Source: Rhizobium sp. L1K21
GTDB lineage: Bacteria; Pseudomonadota; Alphaproteobacteria; Rhizobiales; Rhizobiaceae
Assembly (NCBI RefSeq): GCF_024055895.1
Contig: NZ_JAMXLE010000001.1
Span: 1,178,001 to 1,242,000, forward strand
Direction: 5' to 3'
Length of the DNA: 64,000 nucleotides
Positions 12,740 to 27,844 of this stretch are shown here, piece by piece. Both the position numbers and the translations under genes were made by a program. Under the pieces are notes generated by a model, which ran no database searches, was not told the DNA's origin, and saw nothing but the letters and a program-made list of their open reading frames with translations. Numbering within the stretch: position 1 is the first letter of the stretch; each line of letters starts with the position of its first letter.

Positions 12740-13055
12740 GCGCGGGTGGGTGGAGGTTTCTGTTGCCAGGTACCTCCGAACCCCGCCTGAAGGGGCTAAC
12801 CAACAGGGCTTAAGATCGGGTAACCCGCACCGCCATTAGGCAGCGAGAGCGTAACCCTTAGCGTTGTTGTCATTTGCAACTACACTTTTGACCCGATAAC
12901 GGTGGTATCATGCCGAGCAAAAGTACGATCTTTACGCCCTTGTCGATCCTATTTCGCCCCCATCAAAAGCCGTCTTTACAAGCTTAAGGCGGTTTTTGGT
13001 GGAGGCGCCGGGTACCGCCCCCGGGTCCAATAGGTTTATTACATCGTCCGTTTAT
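12740..13055 (-). ncRNA. ssrA: transfer-messenger RNA, circularly permuted two-piece type
   Basis: The minus strand holds a permuted tmRNA. The acceptor piece comes first and has a T-arm-like segment ending CGCCTCC-A-CCA at 12997. After a short intervening loop, the coding piece starts GGGGGCG at 12961; the two ends pair as a 7-bp acceptor stem with one G-U. The tag frame runs 12877 to 12836 and reads ANDNNAKGYALAA then stop. G/C-rich pseudoknot stems follow to about 12745. Outer boundaries are approximate (plus or minus 20 bases). tmRNA rescues stalled ribosomes and tags products for ClpXP, with SspB as adaptor. Confidence 0.92.
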
Positions 13056-13062
13056 TGCCATA

Positions 13063-13079
13063 GCCGGATCAAGTCCGGC
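13063..13079. repeat. short palindromic intergenic repeat
   Basis: GCCGGATCAAGTCCGGC is an imperfectly centred palindrome (arms GCCGGA/TCCGGC) just upstream of the tmRNA acceptor piece. This word is a familiar intergenic palindrome in rhizobial and Brucella-like genomes. It may affect tmRNA 5' processing or simply be a repeat; not decidable here. Confidence 0.35.
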
Positions 13080-13296
13080 ACGTGTCATATAGGTGTTATG
13101 AGCGGTCATGAAAAGGGGTAAGTTTGCGATGCGTACGGCATCGGCCTGGAATATCGTGCTGTTCAGAAAGCATTGGAAAACGCCAAGCTGACAATGGCGC
13201 CTGATAGCGGGCGGCGTGTAGACTGTTGCGAAAGTGGTGCAAGACGCACCTGCTTGAGTGTAAAATTCTCTCAATCGAATCGGCGGTGGGAAGCTC

Positions 13297-23019: not shown

Positions 23020-25131
23020 TCAGAAACCGTCCTTTTTCAGACTTGAGAGAGGGCGCTTCAAAATGCTTTCCCGCAGGGACATGCCGGGCTCTCTGCGAAT
23101 GCTTGCGGGTTCGCGTTGCGGGTCGGTTGGAATGCGGGCGGCTGGCGGTTGATCCGATACAATCGCCCGCTCGACGCGGCTATATGGGCTTTGGGATGCG
23201 GCAGGTTCCGCTGGTCTTGACGCACCCGGCAACATGTCACGGCGATAAGCTTCCAGGTTTTCTGAACGGTGCGGCTGCGGTGTCGCTGCCGGGCGTTCGA
23301 ACTCAAGGGCGACACTGGATTGCTGTTGGCGGACCGGCGAGATATGGGTTTCCTCATATCGCGGCAGATCAGAAGCGCGTTCAGGCCTGGTCGCGCCGTC
23401 CTCTTCACCGCGATCGGCGATGGAGGATTCGTACCGGTTCTGGAAGTCGGAAATATCAGGTTCGGTTCCAACGGCGCGCATGCGGCTGACGATGGTTCGA
23501 AGATCGATGCTGTCGAATTCGTCCGTCTCCTTGCCGTTGGTAACCATCTGTGCCTTGGGCAGGCGCTGCGGTGCGACGCGCTCAAAACGCATGCGCATCG
23601 GCACTGCCACAGCCTCACCGAAGGCAATGGCCTCACCATTGCCGATGGATGAGATGAAGCTCATCGTTGACGTCGATGAATTGGGAATGGCGGAACGGAT
23701 GATTTCCTGGTCGCGTTCATTTGCAAGCCGCATGGCAAAGACGGTCGAGCACTGCGACAGGATCGTCTGGTCCAATTCGCCCGGCCGCTGGGTGATGATG
23801 CCGAGCGAGACGCCGTATTTTCGTCCTTCCTTGGCAATGCGTGCGATGGCATGGCGGGTCGGGAAAAAGCCGAGGTTGGGATCGGCAGGAACGTAGCGGT
23901 GCGCTTCTTCACAAACCACCAGCATATGGATAGCGCCGTTGGACCAAAGGCCGATTTCGAAGGCCATGCGCGTCAGCACCGAGGCGACGGAATTGACCAC
24001 TTCGGAGGGAATGCCGGAAAGCTGGAATGTGGTGATCGGTTTGCCGTCGCCGGGGATCCGGAAGATGGTCTGGATTGTCTCCATGATGTTGTCGGAGATC
24101 GTGTTCGATGAGAACATGAAATGGTAGCGAGGATCATTGACCGCGGCCATGATGCGCAGTTTGAGCGAGCGCAGAAACGGTTTTTCGTTGCGGCCTTCGA
24201 GCTTGCCGATACGGTCGTCGATCAAGGCCAGAAGATCGGAGATACGATAGGGTACGGGTGTGTCGGCCGTAACGGCGGATTTTTCCGACTGGCGGCGCAT
24301 GAAGGCGGATTCGCCGCGAAACGCGCGCTTGGCCTCGGGTATCATATCGCGGAGGAAATCCAGTTCCTCGGCAACGGCTGGTCGGCCGCGATAGACGACT
24401 TCTGCAAATTCTTCGAGCCGCATCAGCCAGAACGGCAGGTCAAGCGTTTCCGTATCGACGACTATGGCAAGATCCGGGAAGGCAGCAGCAAATTCGTTAT
24501 GTGGGTCGAGAATGAGGACACGAAGCCTCGGATCGACGGCAACGGATTTGCGCAGAAGCAGGGAGACCGCCGTCGATTTGCCCACACCTGTGGAACCAAC
24601 GACAGCAAAGTGTTTCGACAGCATGGAGGGAATGTGAATGGCCGCCTCAATGCTGGTATCCTGGGTGAGGGCACCTATGGCGCAATTGTTTTCTCTGCCG
24701 GTGTCATAAACACGGCGCAGGTCAGCCGAGCGAATGCGGTGCGCGATTGCGCCCAGATAAGGATAGTGGCTGATACCGGTCGAAAATTCTTCACTTCCAT
24801 CATCATTCACACGCACCTCACCGAGAAGCTCGACTTCGATGTGGAAGTTGTTGTCTGCCTCTGCCTGCCAGCCATCATTTTCGGTGTGCATGGCGTTGAC
24901 CAGTGCTACGACGCGGTTCTTGTCCACCGAGATGGAAATGAGACGACCGACAGACCAAAGCTCAGTCATGTCTGTGGCACCGTGTTCGGCGATGGCGGCA
25001 ATCGTTGCGCGTGAGCCCGAGCACGCGACAACGCGACCCATGAGGCGATTGCCGGCTGGATAAAGGCCGCGCAGTTCCCGTCCGGGTTCGTTCTCCTCAG
25101 CTGATACAGCTTGGTTATTGAATTCGCTCAT
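23020..25131 (-). CDS. HerA-like ATPase (DUF87 domain)
   Basis: At 703 aa it has an N-terminal HAS-barrel-like beta domain (about 30-150). A P-loop ATPase domain follows, with Walker A GSTGVGKSTAVSLLL and Walker B MLVVCEEAHRYVP, and motif ITQRPGELDQTILSQCSTVFAMRL typical of the HerA/FtsK-like hexameric translocases. The C-terminal ~150 residues are Pro/Arg/Ser-rich and probably disordered. HerA usually acts with NurA nuclease in DNA end processing; no nurA-like gene is next to it. I chose ATG 25131 (MSEFNNQAVSAEENE). It could also be a bacterial DUF87 protein of other role. Confidence 0.85.
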   Translation of the reverse strand: MSEFNNQAVSAEENEPGRELRGLYPAGNRLMGRVVACSGSRATIAAIAEHGATDMTELWSVGRLISISVDKNRVVALVNAMHTENDGWQAEADNNFHIEVELLGEVRVNDDGSEEFSTGISHYPYLGAIAHRIRSADLRRVYDTGRENNCAIGALTQDTSIEAAIHIPSMLSKHFAVVGSTGVGKSTAVSLLLRKSVAVDPRLRVLILDPHNEFAAAFPDLAIVVDTETLDLPFWLMRLEEFAEVVYRGRPAVAEELDFLRDMIPEAKRAFRGESAFMRRQSEKSAVTADTPVPYRISDLLALIDDRIGKLEGRNEKPFLRSLKLRIMAAVNDPRYHFMFSSNTISDNIMETIQTIFRIPGDGKPITTFQLSGIPSEVVNSVASVLTRMAFEIGLWSNGAIHMLVVCEEAHRYVPADPNLGFFPTRHAIARIAKEGRKYGVSLGIITQRPGELDQTILSQCSTVFAMRLANERDQEIIRSAIPNSSTSTMSFISSIGNGEAIAFGEAVAVPMRMRFERVAPQRLPKAQMVTNGKETDEFDSIDLRTIVSRMRAVGTEPDISDFQNRYESSIADRGEEDGATRPERASDLPRYEETHISPVRQQQSSVALEFERPAATPQPHRSENLEAYRRDMLPGASRPAEPAASQSPYSRVERAIVSDQPPAARIPTDPQREPASIRREPGMSLRESILKRPLSSLKKDGF

Positions 25132-25273
25132 GCTGAACTTTCTCGGTGATCTGCCTGATATTTTAAGCATGCGGCATTAACGGGAGGTTTCCCTTTCATC
25201 GTATCTTCGCATTCGGGACGATTCTGTGTCGCCTTGCGGGACGACAAAATGCAGCCGTGGGTCGATTTGCATG

Positions 25274-25302
25274 TTGACGGAGTTTAAGAATGCCTCTAAC
25301 AA
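25274..25302 (+). promoter_or_regulatory. sigma70-type promoter of the ilvBN leader
   Basis: TTGACG at 25274-25279, a 17-bp spacer, then TAACAA at 25297-25302. Transcription would start at about 25309-25311, the position of the leader-peptide ATG, so the leader mRNA would lack a 5' untranslated region. No Shine-Dalgarno sequence precedes that ATG, which agrees. Confidence 0.6.
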
Positions 25303-25310
25303 TCCGCCCC

Positions 25311-25367
25311 ATGAAAAATCTATTTGTACTTATCGTGGTGGGACAGCGCATGGGCAGGATGGTGTAA
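25311..25367 (+). CDS. ilv leader peptide
   Basis: An 18-codon ORF, MKNLFVLIVVGQRMGRMV, has six Leu/Val/Ile codons (Leu-Phe-Val-Leu-Ile-Val-Val) in a row of seven. It lies between a good promoter and an intrinsic terminator in front of ilvB. Ribosome stalling at these codons when branched-chain amino acids are scarce would prevent termination. It appears leaderless. Confidence 0.85.
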   Translation: MKNLFVLIVVGQRMGRMV

Positions 25368-25393
25368 CCATCCGGCGAAAGCACCCATGCGCT
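25345..25393 (+). promoter_or_regulatory. attenuator RNA stem overlapping the leader-peptide end
   Basis: AGCGCATGGG at 25345-25354 pairs perfectly with CCCATGCGCT at 25384-25393. A smaller hairpin (GGATGG/CCATCC, 25357-25373) sits inside it. A ribosome stalled on the Leu/Val/Ile codons would mask its left arm. This is the probable switch element next to the terminator; the exact alternative pairing was not computed. Confidence 0.6.
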
Positions 25394-25397
25394 ACCG

Positions 25398-25422
25398 AGG
25401 CTCCTCAAAGGGGCCTTTTTTT
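25398..25422 (+). terminator. ilvBN attenuator (intrinsic terminator)
   Basis: AGGCTCC (25398-25404), loop TCAAA, GGGGCCT (25410-25416), then a T run to 25422: a compact rho-independent hairpin located 52 bases before the ilvB start and directly after the leader stems. Confidence 0.8.
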
Positions 25423-25474
25423 ATGTCTCCAATCAAGCTAAAGACGCAGCAAAATCGGGAATGAGAAGAAAGAG

Positions 25475-27253
25475 ATGACGGGCAAAGACAATCAGATGAC
25501 GGGCGCCGAAATTGTACTTCAGGCTTTGAGGGACAATGGCGTGGAGCATATTTTCGGTTATCCGGGTGGTGCCGTTCTGCCGATCTATGACGAGATTTTC
25601 CAGCAGGACGACATTCAGCATATCCTGGTTCGTCACGAACAGGGGGCAGGGCATGCTGCGGAAGGCTATGCCCGTTCGACCGGCAAACCGGGAGTCATGC
25701 TGGTAACCTCAGGCCCCGGTGCGACAAATGCGGTGACGCCGCTGCAGGACGCCCTGATGGATTCCATCCCGCTTGTCTGCATCTCCGGCCAGGTTCCCAC
25801 CACGCTCATCGGCTCCGATGCTTTTCAGGAATGCGACACGGTTGGGATTACACGTCCCTGCACCAAGCACAACTGGCTGGTGAAGGACGTGAACGAGCTT
25901 GCCGGTGTCATTCATGAGGCTTTCCGGATCGCCACAAGTGGCCGGCCCGGTCCTGTTGTGATCGATGTGCCGAAGGATGTTCAGTTCGCCACCGGTACGT
26001 ATGTTCCGAAATCCGCGGTCAAGGCCGAGCCGGCCTATGCGCCCAAAAAGCAGGGCGATCTGGAAAAAATACGCGAAGCCGTCAAGCTGATGGAGGGTGC
26101 GCGCCGTCCGATGATTTATTCCGGCGGCGGCGTTGTAAACTCGGGCTCCGAAGCGAGCCAGCTGCTGCGCGAACTTGTCGAACTGACCGGATTTCCGATC
26201 ACATCCACACTGATGGGGCTTGGGTCCTATCCCGCATCCGGCGAGGCTTGGATGGGGATGCTGGGCATGCATGGCACCTATGAAGCCAATATGGCCATGC
26301 ACGATTGCGACGTCATGCTGTGCATCGGCGCGCGTTTTGATGACCGTATTACGGGCCGTCTGGATGCGTTTTCGCCGAATTCGAAGAAGATCCATATCGA
26401 TATCGATCCGTCTTCGATCAACAAGAATGTGCGTGTTGATGTGCCGATCATCGGCGATGTCGGCCTTGTTCTGGAAGACATGGTTCGTTTGTGGCGTGCA
26501 AGCTCCAAGCGTACTGACAAGGCACATCTGGCTGACTGGTGGGGTGAGATTGCAAAATGGCGGGCGCGCAAGTCGCTTTCCTATACGCATTCGAACGATG
26601 TCATCATGCCGCAATATGCCATCGAGCGGCTTTATGAGAAGACGAAGCATCTGGATACTTACCTCACGACCGAGGTCGGTCAGCACCAGATGTGGGCGGC
26701 ACAGTTCTACGGTTTCGAACAGCCGAACCGCTGGATGACATCGGGCGGACTGGGGACCATGGGGTATGGCTTGCCGGCAGCGCTCGGCGTGCAGATTGCC
26801 CATCCGGAGAGCCTTGTTGTCAGTGTTGCCGGCGATGCATCGGTTCAGATGTGCATTCAGGAAATGTCATCTGCGATCCAGCACAATGCGCCTATCAAGA
26901 TTTTCATTTTGAACAACCAGTATATGGGCATGGTGCGCCAGTGGCAGCAGCTGCTGCATGGCAACCGCCTGTCGAACTCCTATACTGAAGCCATGCCTGA
27001 TTTCGTGAAGCTGGCGGAGGCCTACGGTGCCCATGGCATTCGTTGTGAAAAGCCGGGTGAACTGGATGCGGCCATTGATGAGATGATCAGCGTGAAGAAG
27101 CCGGTGATATTCGATTGCCGCGTGGCCAATCTGGCCAACTGTTTCCCGATGATCCCGTCCGGCAAGGCGCATAACGAGATGTTGTTGCCCGATGAGGCGA
27201 CCGATGAGGTGGTGGCAAATGCCATCGACGCCAAAGGTCGCCAGCTTGTTTGA
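25475..27253 (+). CDS. ilvB: acetolactate synthase large subunit
   Basis: At 592 aa this is a thiamine-diphosphate enzyme with the three typical domains. Seen are IFGYPGGAVLPIYDE, the catalytic-Glu region VRHEQGAGHAAEGYAR, the FAD-domain stretch GLGSYPASGEAWMGMLGMHG, and the ThDP/Mg motif around VAGDASVQMCIQEMS ... ILNNQYMGMVRQWQ. It condenses pyruvate or 2-oxobutyrate in the first common step of Val, Leu and Ile synthesis. It lies downstream of an ilv attenuator and 18 bases upstream of its regulatory subunit. The gene may be named ilvI in relatives. Confidence 0.96.
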   Translation: MTGKDNQMTGAEIVLQALRDNGVEHIFGYPGGAVLPIYDEIFQQDDIQHILVRHEQGAGHAAEGYARSTGKPGVMLVTSGPGATNAVTPLQDALMDSIPLVCISGQVPTTLIGSDAFQECDTVGITRPCTKHNWLVKDVNELAGVIHEAFRIATSGRPGPVVIDVPKDVQFATGTYVPKSAVKAEPAYAPKKQGDLEKIREAVKLMEGARRPMIYSGGGVVNSGSEASQLLRELVELTGFPITSTLMGLGSYPASGEAWMGMLGMHGTYEANMAMHDCDVMLCIGARFDDRITGRLDAFSPNSKKIHIDIDPSSINKNVRVDVPIIGDVGLVLEDMVRLWRASSKRTDKAHLADWWGEIAKWRARKSLSYTHSNDVIMPQYAIERLYEKTKHLDTYLTTEVGQHQMWAAQFYGFEQPNRWMTSGGLGTMGYGLPAALGVQIAHPESLVVSVAGDASVQMCIQEMSSAIQHNAPIKIFILNNQYMGMVRQWQQLLHGNRLSNSYTEAMPDFVKLAEAYGAHGIRCEKPGELDAAIDEMISVKKPVIFDCRVANLANCFPMIPSGKAHNEMLLPDEATDEVVANAIDAKGRQLV

Positions 27254-27271: not shown

Positions 27272-27844
27272 ATGAACGCTCAACTTCAACCCACTGGCTC
27301 CGCCTATTTCATCGCCAAGGAAACGGAAGCCGCCGAAAATCACACGCTCTCGGTTCTCGTCAAAAACGAGCCGGGGGTGCTCGCCCGCGTGATCGGTCTG
27401 TTTTCCGGTCGGGGCTATAATATCGAAAGTCTCACGGTTTCGGAAACGGAGCATGAGGCGCACCTTTCGCGCATCACGATTGTCACGAATGGAACGCCGC
27501 ATGTTCTGGAGCAGATCAAGGCGCAGCTTGAACGCATTGTGCCGGTTCACCGGGTGGTGGACCTCACCGTTCGCGCCCGTCAGTTTGGCCATGAACGCCC
27601 GCTGGAGCGGGAAGTAGCGCTGGTGAAGGTTGCTGGCTCGGAGAACTATCGTGTGGAAGCGCTTCGCCTTGCCGATGCATTCCATGCCAAGGTGGCCGAT
27701 GCCACGGTGGAGCATTTCATCTTCGAAATCACCGGCAAACCTTCCAAGATCGATCAGTTCATCGCCATCATGAAGCCGCTCGGACTGATTGAAGTCTGCC
27801 GCACCGGCATTGCCGCCATGAACCGCGGCGCCCAGGGCATGTAA
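27272..27844 (+). CDS. ilvN: acetolactate synthase small (regulatory) subunit
   Basis: At 190 aa it has an N-terminal ACT domain (HTLSVLVKNEPGVLARVIGLFSGRGYNIESL) with the valine-binding fold and the C-terminal ALS_ss domain ending LIEVCRTGIAAMNRG. It confers valine feedback inhibition on the large subunit. It is cotranscribed with ilvB and closed by a strong intrinsic terminator. It may be called ilvH in relatives. Confidence 0.95.
   Translation: MNAQLQPTGSAYFIAKETEAAENHTLSVLVKNEPGVLARVIGLFSGRGYNIESLTVSETEHEAHLSRITIVTNGTPHVLEQIKAQLERIVPVHRVVDLTVRARQFGHERPLEREVALVKVAGSENYRVEALRLADAFHAKVADATVEHFIFEITGKPSKIDQFIAIMKPLGLIEVCRTGIAAMNRGAQGM

Follow-up and report, generated by a model that had tools for sequence, protein, structure and literature searches.

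A probable leaderless attenuator sensing branched-chain amino acids upstream of ilvBN in Rhizobium sp. L1K21 and its relatives

Introduction

How could a ribosome that starts on the very first codon of a short transcript control the transcription of the acetolactate synthase genes in a rhizobium? The question is raised by the ilvBN locus of Rhizobium sp. L1K21, where a promoter, a leader open reading frame (ORF), a stem (S1), an inner hairpin (H) and an intrinsic terminator (T) precede ilvBN, all on the forward strand. The locus lies in a window of 64,000 nt, by which we mean the whole stretch of DNA that was analyzed. The original prediction for this leader, made from the sequence, was a leaderless, ribosome-mediated attenuation of ilvBN, with possible roles in trans for the terminated RNA and the peptide. 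Here, we followed it up by comparing leaders across the family of the window (Rhizobiaceae) and other families of the order.

Materials and Methods

The leader set (n = 137) comprised 80 leaders from the family of the window and 57 from 21 other families of the order, and was composed of the window itself, the 55 best-scoring RF02502 loci and 81 hand-picked sites spread over genera. Start codons in the 137 leaders were set by rule and reset by hand in three of them (L037, L104, and L114). A model, R1, was built here from 85 leaders. As controls we used trp leaders: 41 loci were inspected, 5 of which had no leader and three of which (L148, L149, and L267) were excluded for want of a properly parsed terminator, which left n = 33; seven more TrpE-domain loci (L140-L146) were left out.

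Results

On re-reading of the sequence, every element of the original prediction, from the promoter through the ORF, stem and terminator to ilvB (Table 1), was found where predicted, exact to the base. The stem was present as given and we add a second hairpin, H, which S1 encloses. The prediction had not recognized the leader as a known Rfam family; a covariance model search identified it as a member of RF02502 (Atu_C8) by a full-length match (1-122) that scored 107.3 bits, where the gathering score is 50, with E = 1.3e-22 for the whole window. The same search of the L1K21 genome found no paralogous leader copy above the cut-off beyond this one, and its two further matches were discarded as noise (E 0.56 and 0.87). 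The large subunit gene was assigned with 789.6 bits to TIGR00118 (cut-off 538.35) and 1209.9 bits to NF006581 (cut-off 974). The divergent neighbor of the locus (23020-25170, reverse strand) encodes a HerA-like ATPase that scores far under the HerA-family cut-offs (225 vs. 850 bits). The window also carries a permuted alphaproteobacterial tmRNA (12749-13118, reverse strand; RF01849, 316.7 bits).

Table 1. Positions of the ilvBN leader elements and genes in the window of Rhizobium sp. L1K21.
Feature	Position	Strand	Basis and remarks
-35 box TTGACG	25274-25279	+	Sequence; position conserved in 80/80 family leaders
-10 box TAACAA	25297-25302	+	Sequence; followed by 8 nt (TCCGCCCC) and then the ATG at 25311
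Leader ORF MKNLFVLIVVGQRMGRMV, predicted leaderless	25311-25367 (TAA 25365-25367)	+	Sequence; no Shine-Dalgarno
RF02502 (Atu_C8) match	25313-25432	+	Covariance model search
Control codons Val-Leu-Ile-Val-Val	25326-25340	+	Sequence; conserved in relatives
Stem S1, arms 25345-25354 (AGCGCATGGG) and 25384-25393 (CCCATGCGCT)	25345-25393	+	Fold, covariation
Inner hairpin H, arms 25357-25363 and 25367-25373, stop codon at tip	25357-25373	+	Fold
Intrinsic terminator T, arms 25397-25405 and 25409-25417, U-tract 25416-25422	25397-25422	+	Sequence, fold
ilvB/ilvI, acetolactate synthase large subunit	25475-27253	+	TIGR00118 and NF006581 matches
ilvN/ilvH, acetolactate synthase small subunit	27272-27844	+	Profile search

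The original prediction proposed looking for the leader in related genomes, where it proved to be widespread: RF02502 matched in 193/199 genomes of the family, 187 of them above the cut-off, and in 168/297 genomes of the order (56 above the cut-off), the two genome sets overlapping. Model R1 matched 80/80 named ilvB loci from Rhizobium, Sinorhizobium/Ensifer, Agrobacterium, Mesorhizobium, and other genera, and 4/289 genomes across the class, including the window's own, under strict filters that may undercount. Downstream on the same strand, 134/137 leaders have an IlvB-like frame, with 131 to 321 nt from the leader ATG to the ilvB start. Two leaders of one family (L115 and L277, family f10) belong to tandem genes for the acetolactate synthase large subunit, each gene having its own leader copy.

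Every one of the 137 leaders carries a short ORF with at least three consecutive Leu/Ile/Val codons; in the window it is 18 codons long. Conservation of these codons, on which the original prediction had staked its reading, was apparent: Leu, Ile and Val all occur in the run in 129/137 leaders. At the two sites before the Val codons, the orders Ile-Leu and Leu-Ile are about equally frequent in the family and the set is retained. A kept set of residues with a swapped order is as predicted by the sensing of all three amino acids. Stop codons are distributed unevenly among frames: the 137 leaders have none before the end in frame 0, whereas frame +1 is interrupted in 131/137 and frame +2 in 20. 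Attenuation by branched-chain amino acids is, in our judgment, highly probable.

The lowest-energy fold of the leader (-46.8 kcal/mol; z = -4.62; equaled by 0/200 shuffles) consists of S1, H, and T. RNAalifold returned S1 and T only from 85 mixed leaders, with compensatory changes in 10/16 pairs: 7 of the 9 core pairs of S1 and 3 of the 7 core pairs of T were changed on both sides in the 85 sequences. The covariation score of S1 and T was 0.413 vs. 0.203 when shuffled, with 0/500 shuffles as high and slid versions of the pairing at 0.125 or less, and 96.0% of the cells were paired (84.9% when shuffled). The number of additional pair types in the two helices did not exceed that of the shuffles (55/500 as high). 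Hairpin H has 6 pairs in 80/80 family leaders and holds the stop codon within its loop in 131/137 leaders. Beyond the predicted end of the RNA, a sequence after the U-tract (window positions 25423-25434; TTATTGCC- or TATGCC-like) is conserved in all relatives. Single folds and the outer bracket of the Rfam model proposed a helix between the control codons and this post-terminator sequence, which we rejected: the four outer Rfam pairs formed in 56.1% of cells vs. 54.1% when shuffled, with a covariation matched by 65/500 shuffles, and a longer register formed in 40.4% vs. 40.7%. No pairing partner for the conserved sequence was found among the Rfam pairs and the longer register.

Attenuators of the trp/ilv type have a terminator before the structural gene, as is the case here, and an antiterminator that overlaps it. 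We found no Watson-Crick partner of at least 6 bp upstream of the first arm of T in any of the 137 ilv leaders (shuffles, 1.8-3.0%), whereas 20/33 trp leaders of the window's family were positive in the same test (shuffles, 16.1%, the arms being longer). Relative to shuffled leaders, the pairing energy of T's first arm was less favorable in the family (z = +1.00), nearly neutral in the other leaders (+0.35) and more favorable in the trp leaders (-0.93), in agreement with an earlier run, and a scan by columns across the family leaders (n = 80) recovered S1, T, and H as the only helices of at least 6 pairs. An alternative pairing of T's first arm, 4 bp between 25352-25355 and 25400-25403, is retained by 99% of the family leaders (n = 80) and could function as a weak antiterminator. 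A wider terminator window yielded partners of 9-11 bp in 8/80 family leaders that were gone with a narrower window; their lengths fit an S1 arm taken into the terminator window.

The original prediction of attenuation stood in part: promoter spacing, codons and covariation are consistent with leaderless, translation-dependent control of ilvBN, but the classical antiterminator was not found. Attenuation could nevertheless be classical if S1 was part of an antiterminator that is short, bulged or in a pseudoknot and was therefore missed. S1 is indeed placed like an antiterminator, would form with a ribosome on the codon run and be lost with one at the stop codon, and the family retains the 4-bp pairing with the first arm of T. 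Yet pairing to this arm is weaker than in shuffled sequences and falls short of 6 bp throughout the ilv leaders in a test that detects it in trp leaders, RNAalifold returns S1 and T alone, and the end of S1 is separated from T by 5-9 nt in the family and 1-10 nt in the others. We consider classical attenuation unlikely on this evidence.

How, then, might the position of the ribosome be relayed to T? Folding of 13 leaders retained S1 and H with a ribosome on the codon run and lost both when the ribosome was placed at the stop codon. In the window, the computed probability of T was 0.96-0.97 at every ribosome position, and S1 and T coexist in the lowest-energy fold. Nine leaders were folded with a ribosome and T had a probability of at least 0.94 at all positions in 7 of them; the exceptions were L046, which decreased to 0.53 at some positions, and L105, with 0.42-0.49 (its arms were set too wide). 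Folding with a stalled ribosome was a check suggested in the original prediction. Because S1 and T coexist and the probability of T does not change, only a steric argument ties stalling to read-through.

The distances between the ribosome and T are compatible with such an argument. In E. coli, a terminator was described as fully active with a ribosome more than 27 nt away, a limit that comes from a different terminator, and folding of a terminator was estimated to need at least 10-15 free nt (PMC4824070); a coupled ribosome is reported to prevent the pyrBI terminator (PMC10135430). The stop codon is 29-43 nt from T and exceeds 27 nt in 137/137 leaders. Once S1 has folded, T lies 5-18 nt from the last codon of the run over the whole set (group ranges of 9-17 nt and 5-18 nt; 27 nt or less in 137/137) and 11-31 nt from the first codon (group ranges of 20-31 nt and 11-30 nt; 27 nt or less in 126/137, the remaining 11/137 exceeding this value). 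From the last codon to the end of the U-tract, the distance has a standard deviation of 1.2 nt in the family and 2.6 nt in the others. As a matter of geometry, and with distances taken from sequence, these values fit the proximity that would be expected of a pyrBI-type attenuator, in which the ribosome can reach T in the ON state but not in the OFF state. Against the steric model, approximately 6 nt of S1 would be covered by a ribosome positioned on the last Val codon. As a link between stalling and read-through is required and the distances fit, we propose that S1-H is a folding spacer that brings the ribosome onto T. The balance between a steric and an antiterminator-based mechanism is, in our judgment, even.

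The -35 and -10 boxes of the leader promoter in the window are 17 nt apart and, using a fixed scoring rule for sigma70-like promoters, the gap from the end of the -10 box to the ATG is 6-9 nt in 80/80 family leaders (6 nt in 4, 7 in 15, 8 in 59, and 9 in 2). Shuffled upstream sequences had such a close promoter in 6.45 leaders on average and in 12 at most. Among the named ilvB loci, 78/80 were parsed and had gaps of 7 nt (13), 8 nt (64), and 10 nt (1), in an analysis whose choice of start favored such gaps. The leader ORF was predicted originally to have no Shine-Dalgarno and this was borne out, as anti-Shine-Dalgarno pairing amounted to +1.9 kcal/mol (none) at the leader ATG vs. -4.3 at the ilvB start; in the 80 family leaders this energy averaged -0.41 and was -5 or lower in 3/80. 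The trpL of the window's genome (L250), read by eye, has the same layout (TAACAC, 8 nt, ATG). In Sinorhizobium meliloti, trpL transcripts are described as beginning with AUG (PMC7298713; PMC10117765) and 171 transcription starts as falling on the first base of an AUG (PMC3616915), so leaderless reading is nothing unusual in these bacteria. We infer that the transcript of the window starts at, or within about 2 nt of, position 25311.

The same attenuator could be preceded by a short 5' untranslated leader if transcription started a few nucleotides upstream. Such an arrangement would accommodate the 5 of the 57 leaders outside the family whose close promoters are doubtful, among them L046 (gap of 5 nt and spacer of 19) and L120 and L124 (Shine-Dalgarno-like energy). 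However, the 8 nt between the -10 box and the ATG provide no space for a Shine-Dalgarno, the pyrimidines at positions -1 (75/80) and -2 (77/80) of the family leaders make the A of the ATG the natural start, and position 1 of the Rfam model (25313) is already inside the ATG. A short untranslated leader is therefore improbable, and the window leader is very probably leaderless.

Outside the family, 33 of the 57 leaders have a promoter of equal quality 24-45 nt upstream of the ATG, 16 are leaderless-like (5-9 nt) and 8 score too low to tell. The leaderless-like outsiders comprise all of f21 (9/9) and f25 (3/3), one leader each of f20 and f15, and two transporter-linked copies in f6. Shine-Dalgarno energies in the 57 leaders averaged -4.07 and were -5 or lower in 27. 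Leaderless initiation thus looks like a conserved and lineage-specific trait, because the close promoter of the 80/80 family leaders is replaced in 33/57 others with one 24-45 nt away.

Three of the 137 leaders (L035, L044, and L045) precede a gene for a Bcr/CflA-type transporter of the MFS class rather than ilvB, with TIGR00710 matches above the cut-off for L044 and L045 and of 178.9 vs. 200.9 for L035. Two more copies before an MFS gene were found in genus g29, and others at five plasmid or chromid loci of Rhizobium gallicum, R. etli, Rhizobium sp. BG4, and Phyllobacterium. A search for the transporter in 297 family genomes retrieved 30 loci, 9 of them with the leader. The MFS-linked leaders (L035, L044, L045, L273, L274, L278-L282, L284, L286, L288, L290, and L294) are rich in Val codons. 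In a tree of 38 transporters, the 17 that bear the leader require 2 changes vs. a shuffled mean of 12.8. The only gene without the leader inside the leader-bearing group (L291) has a TPP riboswitch instead (L291:1241-1356, 74.4 bits). Leaderless spacing was present in 15/17 transporter-linked leaders, with a start choice that favored it, and two of the 17 (L287 and L289) look degenerate. In the copy on plasmid pRetIE4771d of R. etli bv. mimosae (L278:2480-2604), the leader frame has no stop in H and continues into the terminator. The f6 transporter copies differ from the remaining f6 leaders in that their stem is of the family type (GCGCATGGG) and their start leaderless-like, which suggests that leader and transporter gene were transferred together.

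Discussion

The analyses point to a mechanism in which RNA polymerase would start on the A of the leader AUG or on a neighboring base and the ribosome would initiate directly on this 5'-terminal codon to read the 18 codons with the Val-Leu-Ile-Val-Val run. When charged tRNAs are ample, the ribosome would reach the stop codon and open H and the left arm of S1; at approximately 34-37 nt before T, it would allow T to fold and transcription to end. The short RNA terminated in this way would correspond to Atu_C8 of Agrobacterium. A shortage of Leu, Ile or Val tRNA would instead leave the ribosome waiting on the run while S1 and H fold at its leading edge. With these elements folded, only approximately 9-24 nt of RNA would separate the ribosome from T; the ribosome itself would then hinder T, and transcription would continue into ilvBN. 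As a whole, we regard this explanation (a leaderless transcription attenuator of ilvBN that senses branched-chain amino acids and operates through a ribosome that hinders T) as reasonably probable. More tentatively, and with slightly less than even confidence, the leaders could represent a sub-class of attenuators that work by compaction with no antiterminator, are leaderless in the family, and were recruited to an MFS clade and apparently passed between families.

If correct, amino acid attenuation would be possible without two alternative hairpins, ribosome position and a folding spacer being enough. The steric idea is testable with reporters, because there are over 100 natural variants with fixed distances. 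Furthermore, the AUG-starting and Shine-Dalgarno leaders of one regulator offer a comparative series to ask why rhizobia use leaderless attenuators. The transporter-linked copies would tie the transport of an MFS substrate to the levels of branched-chain aminoacyl-tRNAs and, via the inferred signal, provide a handle on an uncharacterized transporter. In the portions of the literature covered by our searches, neither a leaderless ilv leader nor an absent antiterminator nor a link between leader and transporter was reported. Hence, the leaderless lineage trait, the absent antiterminator with fixed geometry and the transporter clade appear to be new relative to that literature.

The attenuator itself and its RNA family are already known. 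The window leader belongs to RF02502 (Atu_C8), which Rfam labels as a Rhizobiales sRNA, with no leader ORF, ilvB role or leaderless start. Atu_C8 reportedly originated with Wilms in 2012. An "ilvB leader peptide" or ilvIH cis element of alphaproteobacteria, with predicted attenuation, was described before (Vitreschak, 2004, as cited in PMC1273637 and PMC2573895); to the extent that the citing papers allow comparison, it is likewise a branched-chain leader peptide before acetolactate synthase genes. The ilvBN attenuator of Caulobacter crescentus (Tarleton, 1994, as cited in PMC4117421) also has an Ile/Val leader before ilvBN. Its RNA apparently belongs to another family, the strictly filtered R1 search having matched only 4/289 genomes of the class.

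The trp leaders, including trpL/rnTrpL of S. meliloti, are similar in layout: they have the same promoter spacing, a short peptide and an intrinsic terminator, as well as the leaderless start and the terminated RNA that are predicted for the ilv leader. They differ in having a GGCGGC-type segment able to pair with T's first arm (20/33 with at least 6 bp), which is found in 0/137 ilv leaders. A function in trans is known for trpL only; the trans roles proposed originally for the ilv leader RNA and peptide would be an analogy to it. That the locus is chiefly a gene for a trans-acting sRNA (and peptide), with cis control of ilvBN secondary, would suit the Rfam classification as an sRNA and the reported activity of rnTrpL and peTrpL in trans in S. 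meliloti (PMC10117765; PMC7298713), yet it is very improbable, because the adjacency to ilvB (134/137) and the retained Leu/Ile/Val set favor cis sensing.

The E. coli pyrBI attenuator is alike in that a ribosome near RNA polymerase is described as blocking the terminator with no antiterminator hairpin (PMC10135430; PMC4824070). The two differ in how the ribosome is brought near: through the pausing of the polymerase at low UTP in pyrBI and, as proposed here for the ilv leader, through tRNA shortage and the folding of S1.
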